A stretch of 64,000 nt of DNA from Halorhabdus salina (GTDB lineage: Archaea; Halobacteriota; Halobacteria; Halobacteriales; Haloarculaceae), in NCBI RefSeq assembly GCF_013839425.1, contig NZ_JACDNP010000004.1, positions 124,001-188,000 on the forward strand, read 5' to 3'. Positions 12,314 to 16,132 of the stretch are shown piece after piece (positions within the stretch are counted from its first letter, which is position 1; each line of letters opens with the position of its first letter). Position numbers and translations under genes: made by a program. The notes under the pieces are model-generated. The model did not search any database. It worked only from the letters and a program-made list of their open reading frames with translations, and was not told the DNA's origin.

Positions 12314-13144
12314 TCAATAATCACCGAGAACTCCCAGACGGCGTGCCCGTCGGGTCGTGAGCAGGAACACGCCGTACCCGAGGCCGAGATAGAGGACGGC
12401 AGTCCCAACGAGGAGCGTGAGGTCGACCGGCTCGAACGCCCACAGATTGACGCCTTCGCGCATGGATTCCTGGAGCATGGCGCTGCCCTGAACGAGCGGC
12501 AACAGCCGGAGCCACGGAATCTCGAAGACCGGCGCGGAGATCAGTGCGATGAACACGAACTGCAGGAGGTTCACCACGTTGTTGATCCGCTTATAGAGGA
12601 CACTCAGCCCGCCCATCGCTAGCCCGAGGCCGAACACGGAGGCCACCGCGAGCCAGGCGACGACAACCACGGTCACTACCGGCAACGCCAGAGTCTGACC
12701 GGTCAGCACCAGCATCACGGCGAGGACGACCGCCGACGTGAGAAAGGTCCGGAGCGTGACAGCGATCGATTTCGCGAGAATGACTGGTCCGAACCCGAAC
12801 GGCGTCATGAAGTGCCGCTCCAGCGTTCCCCAGCTGGCTTCCGCCTGAATGGCGCTCGTGATCCCGTAATAGGAACCCTGGGCGAGCGTCCAGAGGAAGT
12901 ACCCGACGATCAACCCCTCGATGGTGTCGGTGATCGCCTGGCCGGCGACCATGCGGCCGCCATAGAACATCAGTCCGAAAAAGATGAGCGTGACCAGCAG
13001 GCCCGTGGCGGCGTTGACAGGGTACCGCAGCCAGATTATCAGATCACGATAAATCACGGCCTTTAGCAGGTGGTAGTACCCGCCGGTCCGCGTCGGCCCG
13101 CCGGCGTCTATCCCCTCAGGCTGGCTCCCCTCGGCGACGGTCAC
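12314..13144 (-). CDS. ABC-2 type exporter permease
   Basis: A 276-residue membrane protein with six predicted helices and an N-terminal cytosolic stretch before AVIYRDLIIWLRYPVNAATG, the layout of ABC-2 type permeases (DrrB/NodJ-like). It starts with GTG overlapping the ATPase stop (GTGA), so it forms a two-gene exporter with the upstream ATPase. Substrate unknown: such pairs export lipids, drugs or polysaccharides. The pair sits between the two halves of the nuo cluster. Confidence 0.82.
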   Translation of the reverse strand: MTVAEGSQPEGIDAGGPTRTGGYYHLLKAVIYRDLIIWLRYPVNAATGLLVTLIFFGLMFYGGRMVAGQAITDTIEGLIVGYFLWTLAQGSYYGITSAIQAEASWGTLERHFMTPFGFGPVILAKSIAVTLRTFLTSAVVLAVMLVLTGQTLALPVVTVVVVAWLAVASVFGLGLAMGGLSVLYKRINNVVNLLQFVFIALISAPVFEIPWLRLLPLVQGSAMLQESMREGVNLWAFEPVDLTLLVGTAVLYLGLGYGVFLLTTRRARRLGVLGDY

Positions 13145-14211
13145 CGTTTTGTCCCCCCATCGTCGGGAGACCGCTCGTCACCCTCGCCGGTCACTTCGAG
13201 GAACGCCTCCGCGAGGTCCGGCTGGATTGTCTCGACGTCCGCGAGTTCGACGCCCGCCGCTTCCAGGGCGTCCGTCAGTCGATAGAACGTCGTCGAATCG
13301 GCCGCAACCTCGAATCGAACGCGGCCGTCCAGTCGCTCGACGCCAGTCAGATCGAACCGATTGCGGAGGTCGTCCAGGGTCGACTCGTCGATGTGTCGAC
13401 CAGTGATCCGATAGCCCCGGGTCTCGAACCCGTCGAGTAGATTGGCCACCGTGTCGTCGACGACAATCTGGCCCTCGTTCATGATAATCACACGGTCACA
13501 GACGTCCTCGATCACCGCCATGTCGTGACTCGAAACGAGCAATGTCAGATCGCGCTCCTCGGCCAGCCGAACCAGTTCGTTTCGGAGGGTCAACGAACTC
13601 TCGATATCCAATCCGAGTGTCGGCTCGTCGAGGAAAGCCACCGAGACATCGCCAACGAGAACGCTCGCCAGCGAGACCTTCTGTTTCATGCCCCGCGAGA
13701 GGTCCCGGACGGCGGTGTCGGCCTCCTCGGCGATATCGAACGCCTCCAGGAGTTCGGTGTGTCGTCGGGCAAGCGTGTCGGGGTCGTGGCCGCGAATAGC
13801 CGCGAAGTAGCGGAGATTCTCCCGGACGGTCAACCGCCAGTAGTCGTTGCGCGCCCCCTCGAGCATCGCGTCGACGTGTTCGTAGGCTGCTTTCGGGCGG
13901 TCGTAGACGTCGATGCCCTGAATTGTGACGTCGCCCGCGTCGGGGAGGACCAAGCCAAGAATCGACTTGATCGTCGTGGTCTTGCCGGCGCCGTTGGGTC
14001 CGAGCAACCCCACTACTTCGCCTGACTCAACCGCGAAGGAGACATCCTGAACAGCGGTGACCGCCTCCTCACCGCTGCCGAAGGTCTTCGTGAGCCCGTC
14101 AACGTATAGCGCCGCCGCTTCGGGTGAGACAGTCCGGTTCTTCTGCGCCCGGCTATCCGCACCGACCGTCTCGGAGAAGTCTTGTTTGATTGCCTGCGGG
14201 GAGCCAGTCAT
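13141..14211 (-). CDS. ABC transporter ATP-binding protein
   Basis: A 356-residue ATPase. After an N-terminal stretch of about 35 polar residues come Walker A GPNGAGKTT (71-79), an LSRGMKQK signature, Walker B FLDEPTLGLD and the switch histidine in SSHDMAVIED. A C-terminal domain of about 90 residues resembles the DUF4162 tail found on CcmA/DrrA-type exporters. I chose the ATG at 14211: a TATA-like TTGTATCG lies about 27 nt upstream. A TTG seven codons earlier is the alternative. It is coupled to the permease downstream. Confidence 0.88.
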   Translation of the reverse strand: MTGSPQAIKQDFSETVGADSRAQKNRTVSPEAAALYVDGLTKTFGSGEEAVTAVQDVSFAVESGEVVGLLGPNGAGKTTTIKSILGLVLPDAGDVTIQGIDVYDRPKAAYEHVDAMLEGARNDYWRLTVRENLRYFAAIRGHDPDTLARRHTELLEAFDIAEEADTAVRDLSRGMKQKVSLASVLVGDVSVAFLDEPTLGLDIESSLTLRNELVRLAEERDLTLLVSSHDMAVIEDVCDRVIIMNEGQIVVDDTVANLLDGFETRGYRITGRHIDESTLDDLRNRFDLTGVERLDGRVRFEVAADSTTFYRLTDALEAAGVELADVETIQPDLAEAFLEVTGEGDERSPDDGGTKR

Positions 14212-14396
14212 CGATGTAGTGACATGGTTCAAGAGCGATACAAGTGAATCTTTCTACACCTCGTGGGATGCGGGGACGGTCTCACGACTCGGCAGGTGAC
14301 TCATACGGATTGCTGTCAGTCAGTATCGGAATGATCGCACGACTGCGTCTGATCGAACCACAAACGAGTCGATCCACAAAGGTCTTTGGCTGCCGA

Positions 14397-14570
14397 TCAC
14401 GAGACGTCGCGTTCGAAGACGAGGCCGACCGTCGTCCCGCCCTGGGCGATTGTCTCGGTCAGTTGCCACCCCTCTGATGCGTACTCGTTGATGATCGCAT
14501 CCAGGTCGCCGATCGATTGCTGGGGCCCCTCCGTTTCGTGGACAGTGTAGACATATTCTTGATTCGACAT
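14397..14570 (-). CDS. small DUF4177-like protein
   Basis: A 57-residue acidic protein (start MSNQEYVYTVHE, end LVFERDVS). The pattern of a short strand, an LDAIINEYASEGWQL helix and a closing VFERD strand matches small DUF4177-type domains, whose function is unknown. It is encoded alone on the minus strand between the ABC ATPase and the divergent DUF456 gene, inside the segment that interrupts the nuo cluster. Composition and start context look like a real haloarchaeal gene. Confidence 0.62.
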   Translation of the reverse strand: MSNQEYVYTVHETEGPQQSIGDLDAIINEYASEGWQLTETIAQGGTTVGLVFERDVS

Positions 14571-14784
14571 GCCTGAGACAATGGCCGCCAGCGACAAAAA
14601 GGGCGTCCTGGTCCGAAATTCGTCCACCCACTTCACGGTTGGCGTCGGCGCACACTCGCGTCTCACGTCGAGGAACGGCAAGTAGTACCCCGGCCGCTGT
14701 CACGGTGCAGGTTCCGAGCCAGCGGCGATCCGACTCGATCGGGACTGCCAGTGCGCATTTCAGGTCCTGGCCGAAATGTGACGC

Positions 14785-15270
14785 ATGGAGATCACTGTCT
14801 TCCTCGTCGTTGCGATGGCGTTGCTGGTCGGTGGCGTCGTGGGCAGTTTCGTCCCGATGGTCCCGGCGGGGTTGCTCTCGATCGGTGGCATCGCCGTGTA
14901 CTGGTGGAGCACGGGCTACGTGACTCCTGGGTTGATTGTCTTCGTTGGGTTCATCGCCGTCGGGTTACTCGTCGTTGCAGTCGACTACGTAGCGGGCGCG
15001 GTCGCCGCGAAGGCTGGCGGCGCCTCGACACTGAGTAGTCTGGCCGGGGCTGTCGTCGGCTTCCTTCTATTCTTCGTGCTGGGGCCAGTCGGGATCGTCC
15101 TCGGCATCACTGCGACGGTGTTTGCCCTGGAGTTGTACCGCGGCAACGCACGAAGTGAGAGTCTAAAAGCCGCCGTGTACGCTCTCGTCGGAGCGCTTGG
15201 TTCGAGCGTGATGCAGTTCGTGTTGACACTGTCGATGCTAGTCGCGTTTGGCCTCGTCGTCGCGCTCTGA
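14785..15270 (+). CDS. DUF456 family membrane protein
   Basis: A 161-residue, strongly hydrophobic protein with about five membrane segments, Gly-rich turns (VGSFVPMVPAG) and the AVDYVAGAVAAKAGGAS motif typical of DUF456 proteins. Function unknown; the family is widespread in bacteria and haloarchaea. It is the only plus-strand gene between the two nuo halves and converges on nuoI. The 400 bp after its stop are filled by a hairpin array. Confidence 0.78.
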   Translation: MEITVFLVVAMALLVGGVVGSFVPMVPAGLLSIGGIAVYWWSTGYVTPGLIVFVGFIAVGLLVVAVDYVAGAVAAKAGGASTLSSLAGAVVGFLLFFVLGPVGIVLGITATVFALELYRGNARSESLKAAVYALVGALGSSVMQFVLTLSMLVAFGLVVAL

Positions 15271-15326
15271 GGCCACCTTTTTTCATCATCGGGTCGCTCG
15301 CAGTGCTCGCGAACCGCTCTCTGCTC

Positions 15327-15663
15327 ACGGACGTTTCGCGTCCGTATGCTCGCGGGCCATGCGCGGCGCACAGCGCCGCGAGTTCGAGGCGGTTGAAAAC
15401 CGCCTCGCCGCCCGCTCGCACTGTCCGTGGGAGCAAGGCTCCCACGCTATTCGCATGGTCAGCGGGACCTCGGCCCCGCTCGACTCGAAAAAGCTGGACC
15501 AAAAAGATCGGGACCTCGCTGCCTGGCGGCTTCTTCTCGCGGGCGCTAAGCACCCGCTCGAATAGTCCGCGGAACTCCGTTCCGCGCTATCGCCGCTCGG
15601 CTTCCCGAGGTCGCTCGGCGACCTCGCTTCGCTCGCTGCCGCGAACCGCGGCCTTCGGCCGCG
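15327..15663. repeat. array of nine compact hairpins between DUF456 gene and nuoI
   Basis: Within 340 bp I count nine inverted repeats. Stem pairs: 15327-15333/15339-15345; 15362-15369/15373-15380; 15385-15394/15398-15407 (10 bp); 15426-15434/15438-15446 (9 bp); 15461-15466/15475-15480; 15539-15543/15553-15557 with an inner GCT/AGC pair; 15568-15575/15579-15586 (8 bp); 15606-15614/15618-15626 (9 bp); 15647-15653/15657-15663. Most stems are perfect and six have 3-nt loops. The stems differ in sequence, so this is not a tandem repeat. The array fills the gap between two convergent genes and stops within 10 bp of the nuoI stop. No gene is supported here. Confidence 0.85.
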
Positions 15664-15670
15664 TATGCTT

Positions 15671-16132
15671 CTACTGATAGTCGACTTCGCCTTCGCCCTC
15701 ACCGACCCAGCTACCACGATCCGGTTCCCGCGATTCGAGGGGATCGATATCCTTGTACCAGGGAACGTTCTTGAGTTGTTCCTTGTTGTAGGCCAGGTCG
15801 TCCTTGGTATCGCCGGTGAACTCGAAGTTCTGGGTCAGCACGATGGCGTCGGTCGGACAGACCTCCTCACAGAGCCGGCAGTAGATACACTGGCCAACGT
15901 GGAGGTTGTACTGTTCGCCGTTGCGCTGATCGTCCATGACGATCTGAATGGTGTCGTTCGGACAGACGTTCTCACACTGTCGACACCAGATACACCGCTC
16001 CTGGCTGTACTTGTGGACGCCCCGGAAGCGCGGACTCACCTCGGGGGCTTCTTCGGGATACTTGACGGTGAATGTCTTGCCGTCCAGTGCGTGTTTCATC
16101 GTCGTCGCGAGTCCTTTGAGGATACCGATCAT
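15671..16132 (-). CDS. nuoI: NADH-quinone oxidoreductase-like subunit I
   Basis: A 153-residue ferredoxin-like subunit with two 4Fe-4S motifs, CIWCRQCENVCP and CIYCRLCEEVCP, which carry clusters N6a and N6b. It passes electrons toward NuoB at the membrane interface. It is the last gene of the upstream nuo half. In the usual order nuoJ would follow directly; here the hairpin array follows instead. Confidence 0.96.
   Translation of the reverse strand: MIGILKGLATTMKHALDGKTFTVKYPEEAPEVSPRFRGVHKYSQERCIWCRQCENVCPNDTIQIVMDDQRNGEQYNLHVGQCIYCRLCEEVCPTDAIVLTQNFEFTGDTKDDLAYNKEQLKNVPWYKDIDPLESREPDRGSWVGEGEGEVDYQ

Follow-up and report, generated by a model that had tools for sequence, protein, structure and literature searches.

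We investigated a 64,000-nucleotide stretch of the Halorhabdus salina genome (hereafter the window; RefSeq assembly GCF_013839425.1, contig NZ_JACDNP010000004.1, positions 124,001 to 188,000), in which nuoI and a DUF456 gene converge on a hairpin-rich island at 15271–15670. This island is probably one copy, in expanded form, of a small insertion element of the Halobacteriales. The element is non-coding, lacks a transposase, lies just past stop codons, and would serve as a portable bidirectional terminator. Comparison of genomes established, at the level of sequence, a family of such elements with two conserved ends, covarying stems, and a fixed orientation with the upstream gene, whose insertion duplicates the 3' end of this gene.

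Hairpin content and position of the island

The DUF456 gene ends with a stop codon at 15268–15270 on the forward strand and nuoI with a stop codon at 15671–15673 on the reverse strand. An earlier note on this DNA had claimed that the island exactly fills the gap between these two genes, and the gap is indeed 15271–15670 to the nucleotide. The nine packed perfect hairpins described there were also recovered, as nine perfect stem-loops with stems of at least 6 bp at 15327–15663 (337 bp). Two of these have 6-bp stems, one with an 8-nt loop (15461–15480) and one overlapping the last hairpin (15638–15652). The other seven are non-overlapping hairpins with 7–10 bp stems, six of them with a 3-nt loop. 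Dinucleotide shuffles of the island contained 0.36 ± 0.58 such hairpins, with a maximum of 4, and none of the 2000 shuffles reached seven. The island had the highest hairpin density among 7846 windows of 400 bp from 785 kb of its own genome, sampled as stretches, and it folded better than its shuffles on both strands (z of −6.7 and −5.6).

The stems are all different, and the direct repeats are short and present in two copies only, which agrees with the statement of the earlier note that the island is not a CRISPR. The preference of hairpins for 3'-3' junctions, which that note had proposed to check, was observed as well: by rough gene calls, convergent gaps contained 1.65 perfect stems of at least 8 bp per kb, compared with 0.42 per kb for codirectional gaps, 0.28 for divergent gaps, and 0.13 within genes. 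The note was mistaken in denying that the island is a repeat copy set. In a BLAST search of its own genome, parts of the island matched 45 other places at E ≤ 10, and 9 of these reached E ≤ 0.001. The matches include a relative of 287 bp at a different locus. Several matches each, to differing sub-blocks of the island, were also found in all six sister genomes, which together with the H. salina genome make up the seven genomes of Halorhabdus studied here (G000–G006).

A dispersed family with two conserved ends

The copies share a polar layout, in which T5-GGTCCAGM-T5 (hereafter the T motif) is followed by a covarying imperfect hairpin and then by AAAAAGGTGG. On the nuoI strand, comparison of copies gave the framework of gene stop, GCATACG-type hairpin, second hairpin, TTTTTGGTCCAG[AC]TTTTT, at least one hairpin, and AAAAAGGTGG. 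With up to two mismatches allowed, the T motif occurred in 17 copies in the own genome, compared with none for the reversed control. Across the order, 103 of 243 genomes contained it, as did 44 of 77 genera (controls 0), and none of 164 genomes from the other orders of this phylum had the exact 18-mer. The 8-nt spacer has variants (CGCCCACG, CACCCACG, CATCCACG, and others), which show the same behaviour. The second end is tied to the first: A4–8GG[TC]GG lies within 260 bp of the T motif in 119 of 128 copies, versus 74 of 640 random windows, with a spacing of mostly 25–66 bp.

In its simple form, the element is a long imperfect palindrome. From CCA..TTTTT, it runs through a short variable stem, a conserved GAG/CGA mismatch step, a G-C pair, a single unpaired base, GGT/ACC, and the variable inner stem-loop to AAAAA..TGG. 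The fold is supported by covariation in 26 clean examples, where 95.1% of the cells were paired (81.4% when shuffled) and 68 double changes were counted (22.6 when shuffled), although these figures lean upwards because the examples were chosen by eye for completeness. With a covariance model of the simple form, built from these examples, 18 copies were detected in the own genome. Of 99 genomes of the order, 85 had matches, usually 1–40 per genome and at most 43. The arms are usually asymmetric; at two loci of genome G107 (L205 and L208), they form a perfect palindrome, TTTTTTCTTCGTCGGG...CCCGACGAAGAAAAAA.

The expanded inner type of the window copy also recurs at other loci. Other loci of two sister genomes shared ~86–87% identity with the expanded unit (~15273–15496) over 192–227 nt, and these matches stopped near the unit bounds. 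One element copy each was carried by two Halorussus plasmid replicons. Eleven motif matches on viral contigs were rejected as element copies and taken as chance or unrelated, because their G+C content was 0.30–0.44 throughout and the GGTGG end was missing in 10 of them. No larger version that carries genes and has its tail copy far away (up to 60 kb) occurred in the sampled 785 kb, where the 10 GGTGG ends gave two close pairs only.

Elements are located at gene 3' ends and oriented with the upstream gene, and the 128 T-motif copies include 62 in a convergent context and 2 in a divergent one. Each element places a T-tract shortly past the stops on its two sides, namely the double T-tract for the upstream gene and CCACCTTTTT for a convergent gene. 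In about a third of cases, the stop of the convergent gene lies 0–5 nt from CCACCTTTTT. The genes entered include nuoI, gatB, dapD, sufS, argF, ileS, and the gene for the large subunit of DNA polymerase D. At three further loci (L039, L046, and L041), elements adjoin the 3' ends of apparent tRNA genes, with CCACCTTTTT positioned as their terminator.

Insertion with duplication of gene ends

A copy of the 3' end of the upstream gene follows directly after AAAAAGGTGG in 33 of 119 copies, and in the 28 coding cases this tail copy starts 20–83 nt before the stop. At the opposite, T-motif end, a tail of the reverse gene was found in 0 of 80 cases. Orthologous sites free of the element were identified for dapD (G006), gatB (G004), nuoI (G006), and sufS (G003) and compared with the filled sites in G004, G000, G004, and G000, respectively. 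At the filled sites, the ~220 nt that follow GGTGG matched empty-site sequence beginning 49, 49, 79, and 33 nt ahead of the stop, with identities of 95.4%, 89.5%, 94.9%, and 79.8% (same order). At the empty sites, the native tail and flank run on exactly where the element ends. The filled state thus equals the empty state plus the element and a duplicated tail. Simple tandem duplication as the origin is rejected in view of these empty sites, and their collinearity indicates that the copies are insertions with long target duplications. At gatB, as read from the sequences, the empty genomes apparently have convergent genes with overlapping stops, and in the filled genome the two genes are separated and both intact. 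Because the element duplicates the gene tail and so spares the host gene, it can enter housekeeping genes.

The nuoI site carries two tandem elements and a second nuoI tail in Halorhabdus amylolytica, G002, and G005, one element and a second tail in G004, and no element in G006; the copied gene end is therefore present at this same site in four genomes. The nuoI protein of the window is 99% identical to that of H. amylolytica.

Short inverted ends, small size, and the lack of coding capacity would suit a miniature inverted-repeat transposable element (MITE) moved by a canonical DDE transposase that recognizes CCASVTTTTT / AAAAAGGTGG. However, the target copies are variable and reach 20–80+ nt, whereas canonical DDE transposases make far shorter duplications, and the insertion is polar relative to the gene; we regard this origin as hardly probable. 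Target duplications that are long and variable and lie beside hairpins at the 3' ends of genes also resemble insertions driven by a reverse transcriptase, either target-primed or of the kind made by diversity-generating retroelements. RVT_1 matches were found in 0 of 99 genomes of the order, while the same search was positive in 3 control genomes. Retroelements, group II introns included, are thereby eliminated as a general explanation; for host-encoded enzymes, this route is largely refuted, and we consider it extremely improbable.

A third possibility, which we consider decidedly doubtful, is a folded DNA recombination site, like integron attC or integrase att, that joins foreign 3' ends and for which termination is incidental. 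It would account for the long imperfect palindrome and its conserved ends, for an unpaired base, asymmetric mismatches in one arm, and a variable inner stem-loop, and for the junction always being formed at the same end. It is also favoured by the position of the hairpin between two predicted termination points, where it may act as DNA. On the other hand, duplicated tails begin at differing points even within one gene, which does not suggest a fixed core. A linked recombinase gene was not found, and no attC or att consensus was seen, though no dedicated test for one was made.

The copy in the window

Locally, no other copy of the element is as large as the one in the window, the features of which are listed in Table 1. 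Its AAAAAGGTGG end (15273–15283) is on the same strand as the T motif and 204 nt downstream of it, the longest spacing among the 119 copies. On the nuoI strand, the copy consists of a short hairpin leader, TTTTT-GGTCCAGC-TTTTT, an imperfect hairpin expanded by nested modules, and then AAAAAAGGTGG. Transcripts of nuoI would stop at the double T-tract, and transcripts of DUF456, arriving from the opposite side, would stop at CCACCTTTTTT, two bases past the stop codon. The inner hairpins would then sit between two stop points and may matter as DNA.

Table 1. Coordinates of the island, its parts, and the adjacent genes in the window
Feature	Position	Strand	Remarks
DUF456 gene	14785..15270	+	Convergent neighbour; Pfam DUF456, E 2.3e-26
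nuoI	15671..16132	-	Convergent neighbour and insertion target; 4Fe-4S NuoI-type protein beside NuoH
Whole island	15271..15670	-	Expanded element with several hairpins, occupying the 3'-3' gap between nuoI and DUF456; oriented as nuoI
Conserved end CCACCTTTTTT	15273..15283	+	AAAAAAGGTGG on the element strand; begins 2 nt past the DUF456 stop; putative T-tract terminator for DUF456
Conserved double T-tract TTTTTGGTCCAGCTTTTT	15488..15505	-	Exact T5-N8-T5 match; putative terminator for nuoI
Unit between inverted ends CCACCTTTTT / AAAAAGCTGG	15273..15497	-	Expanded inner part with five hairpins
Hairpin, 7-bp stem, 5-nt loop	15327..15345		
Hairpin, 8-bp stem, 3-nt loop	15362..15380		
Hairpin, 10-bp stem, 3-nt loop	15385..15407		
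Hairpin, 9-bp stem, 3-nt loop	15426..15446		
AGCGGGACC-type hairpin, 6-bp perfect stem, 8-nt loop	15461..15480		Base hairpin of other Halorhabdus copies too
Hairpin, 8-bp stem, 3-nt loop	15568..15586		Element leader, nuoI side
Hairpin, 9-bp stem, 3-nt loop	15606..15626		Element leader, nuoI side
Hairpin CGCGGCC-GAA-GGCCGCG	15647..15663		Shortly past the nuoI stop; within the duplicated gene end in sister species

In a 3'-end mapping study of Haloferax, the intergenic sites of termination were T-stretches, and 503 termination sites were preceded by hairpins (PMC7237163). Bidirectional termination would be the most economical role of the island, because T-tracts occur near the stops on both of its sides and T-stretches mark Haloferax transcript ends. 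Of the four roles proposed in the earlier note, that of a bidirectional terminator and that of an inserted element hold together: the first would fit the conserved T-tracts that face inward from both ends, and the second fits the dispersed family and the filled versus empty orthologous sites. What the note missed was the dispersed repeat family with conserved ends. Its two other suggestions, production of small RNAs or protection of mRNA 3' ends, gain from the stable folds on both strands and from three stable hairpins that fall in the predicted 3' untranslated region of nuoI. However, Rfam gave no match up to an E value of 1 within 15000–16000, the inner hairpins lie past the predicted stop points, and the conserved ends and insertions are left unexplained, so that such a function appears improbable as the explanation of the island.

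In Halorhabdus, the nuo operon has an insertion hotspot at its nuoI-nuoJ junction (13141–15670 in the window; L318–L321), where a DUF456 gene, a DUF4177-like gene, and an ABC transporter are inserted in sets that differ between species; two species have VapC/VapB-like genes, named by eye, at this junction. In two unrelated loci, L379 (~366–440, G006) and L328 (G005, after dapD), a hairpin module is inserted at an identical point within the T motif, TTTTTGGTCCA^G..TTTTT, which suggests nested elements that target the T motif. Another dispersed family of hairpin pairs, with a CGG.AGA-hairpin, CAGCCCA, a TCAGAA-hairpin, and GGACG, was observed at L165:12284-12481 (G000:C12:92284-92481), L312, and L316, in the last of which it is inserted inside a T-tract motif.

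Discussion

Several points weigh against the interpretation of the island as an inserted terminator element. In the window, a single element lies directly against the DUF456 stop and there is no duplicated nuoI tail, although such a tail is an optional feature of the family, shared by roughly a quarter of its copies. Recombination between two tails could recreate an empty site, which leaves gain versus loss unproven in each case. The differences between tail copies (28 pairs) are distributed over the codon positions as 17/6/64, and this third-position bias is not predicted by self-duplication and decay, because a dead copy should differ evenly over the positions. The window copy scored 21.4 bits (E 0.11) against the simple-form covariance model R1, a weak score that probably reflects the nested hairpin modules enlarging its inner part. 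The gene calls behind the context counts were home-made with a strict caller. Finally, transcription termination by the element is a role that we infer.

The codon bias means either that the upstream tail was imported from another lineage by recombination or that recombination between the copies is frequent. For nuoI of G004, codons seen in G006 are present in the downstream tail, while the upstream tail differs, which fits import; in other portions, the same tails agree with each other within G004, as local copying would predict. The family has presumably spread partly via homologous recombination of filled alleles between lineages.

The predominance of synonymous differences in the tails also favours an unlikely alternative, that of ordinary, vertically inherited terminators, in which conserved structures of 3' untranslated regions, local tandem duplication of tail plus terminator, and interspecies recombination produce the observed pattern without any mobile element. 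nuoI indeed bears elements in several genera, and tandem arrays of gene tail plus element exist at L188, L217, L241, and L267, with nearly identical units of ~98–147 bp. Vertical inheritance is disfavoured by the empty orthologous sites, which pass straight into the native flank, by the filled sites of dapD (G004), gatB, and sufS, where no second such terminator follows the second tail, and by the occurrence of elements of one sequence family at unrelated loci.

More tentatively, these elements may be self-contained "terminator cassettes" used throughout the order, inserted after genes by a structure-specific mechanism free of reverse transcription. The fixed AAAAAGGTGG end of the folded cassette would be joined to the last codons of a gene, an intact tail would be supplied or copied, and overlapping convergent genes would be separated, with a terminator provided for both. 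If the interpretation of the island as an inserted terminator element is right, transcription ends across an archaeal order were partly built by a dispersed element and did not evolve singly, and an enzyme is to be expected that inserts the element and produces long target duplications but does not use reverse transcription. The many natural pairs of filled and empty sites can be used to test archaeal termination. No published description of the element was found in the literature searched, which is weak evidence, as subscription papers were mostly outside it.

Comparison with known systems

Integron attC sites are characterized by R and L boxes with GTTRRRY and by their integron integrase. 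In layout only, the element is analogous to them, with an imperfect hairpin, unpaired bases in one arm, a variable inner part, conserved outer boxes, and a fixed junction end. It differs from them in its variable target point and the absence of an integrase, and no attC boxes were seen, although no dedicated test was made. The bacterial REP/BIME, RUP, and BOX repeats (PMC3733652, PMC3049150) are likewise intergenic and palindromic, often located at convergent gene ends, with proposed roles in termination or for mRNA. They have other sequences and another host domain and are not known to have conserved double T-tract ends or a duplicated gene tail. Haloferax T-tract terminators share with the element termination at T-stretches, at times with an upstream hairpin, but in the available text they are not presented as a dispersed family with fixed ends and insertion duplications (PMC7237163).

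Among known systems, the small mobile repeats (SMRs) of Haloquadratum walsbyi, which lack a transposase, come closest (PMC3119063). These are ~80–110 bp long and have inverted ends, and what moves them is unknown (PMC3119063). The SMR, PATE, and MITE sequences of this species resemble the element in being short, palindromic, multi-copy, haloarchaeal, and without a transposase. However, SMRs make no target duplication, SMR-A families favour other mobile elements, and PATEs are related to the ends of IS605 (PMC3119063). Our family has inverted ends as well, yet it is accompanied by long target duplications. In contrast to SMRs and PATEs, it is polar, targets gene 3' ends, carries T-tracts at both ends, and is distributed order-wide.
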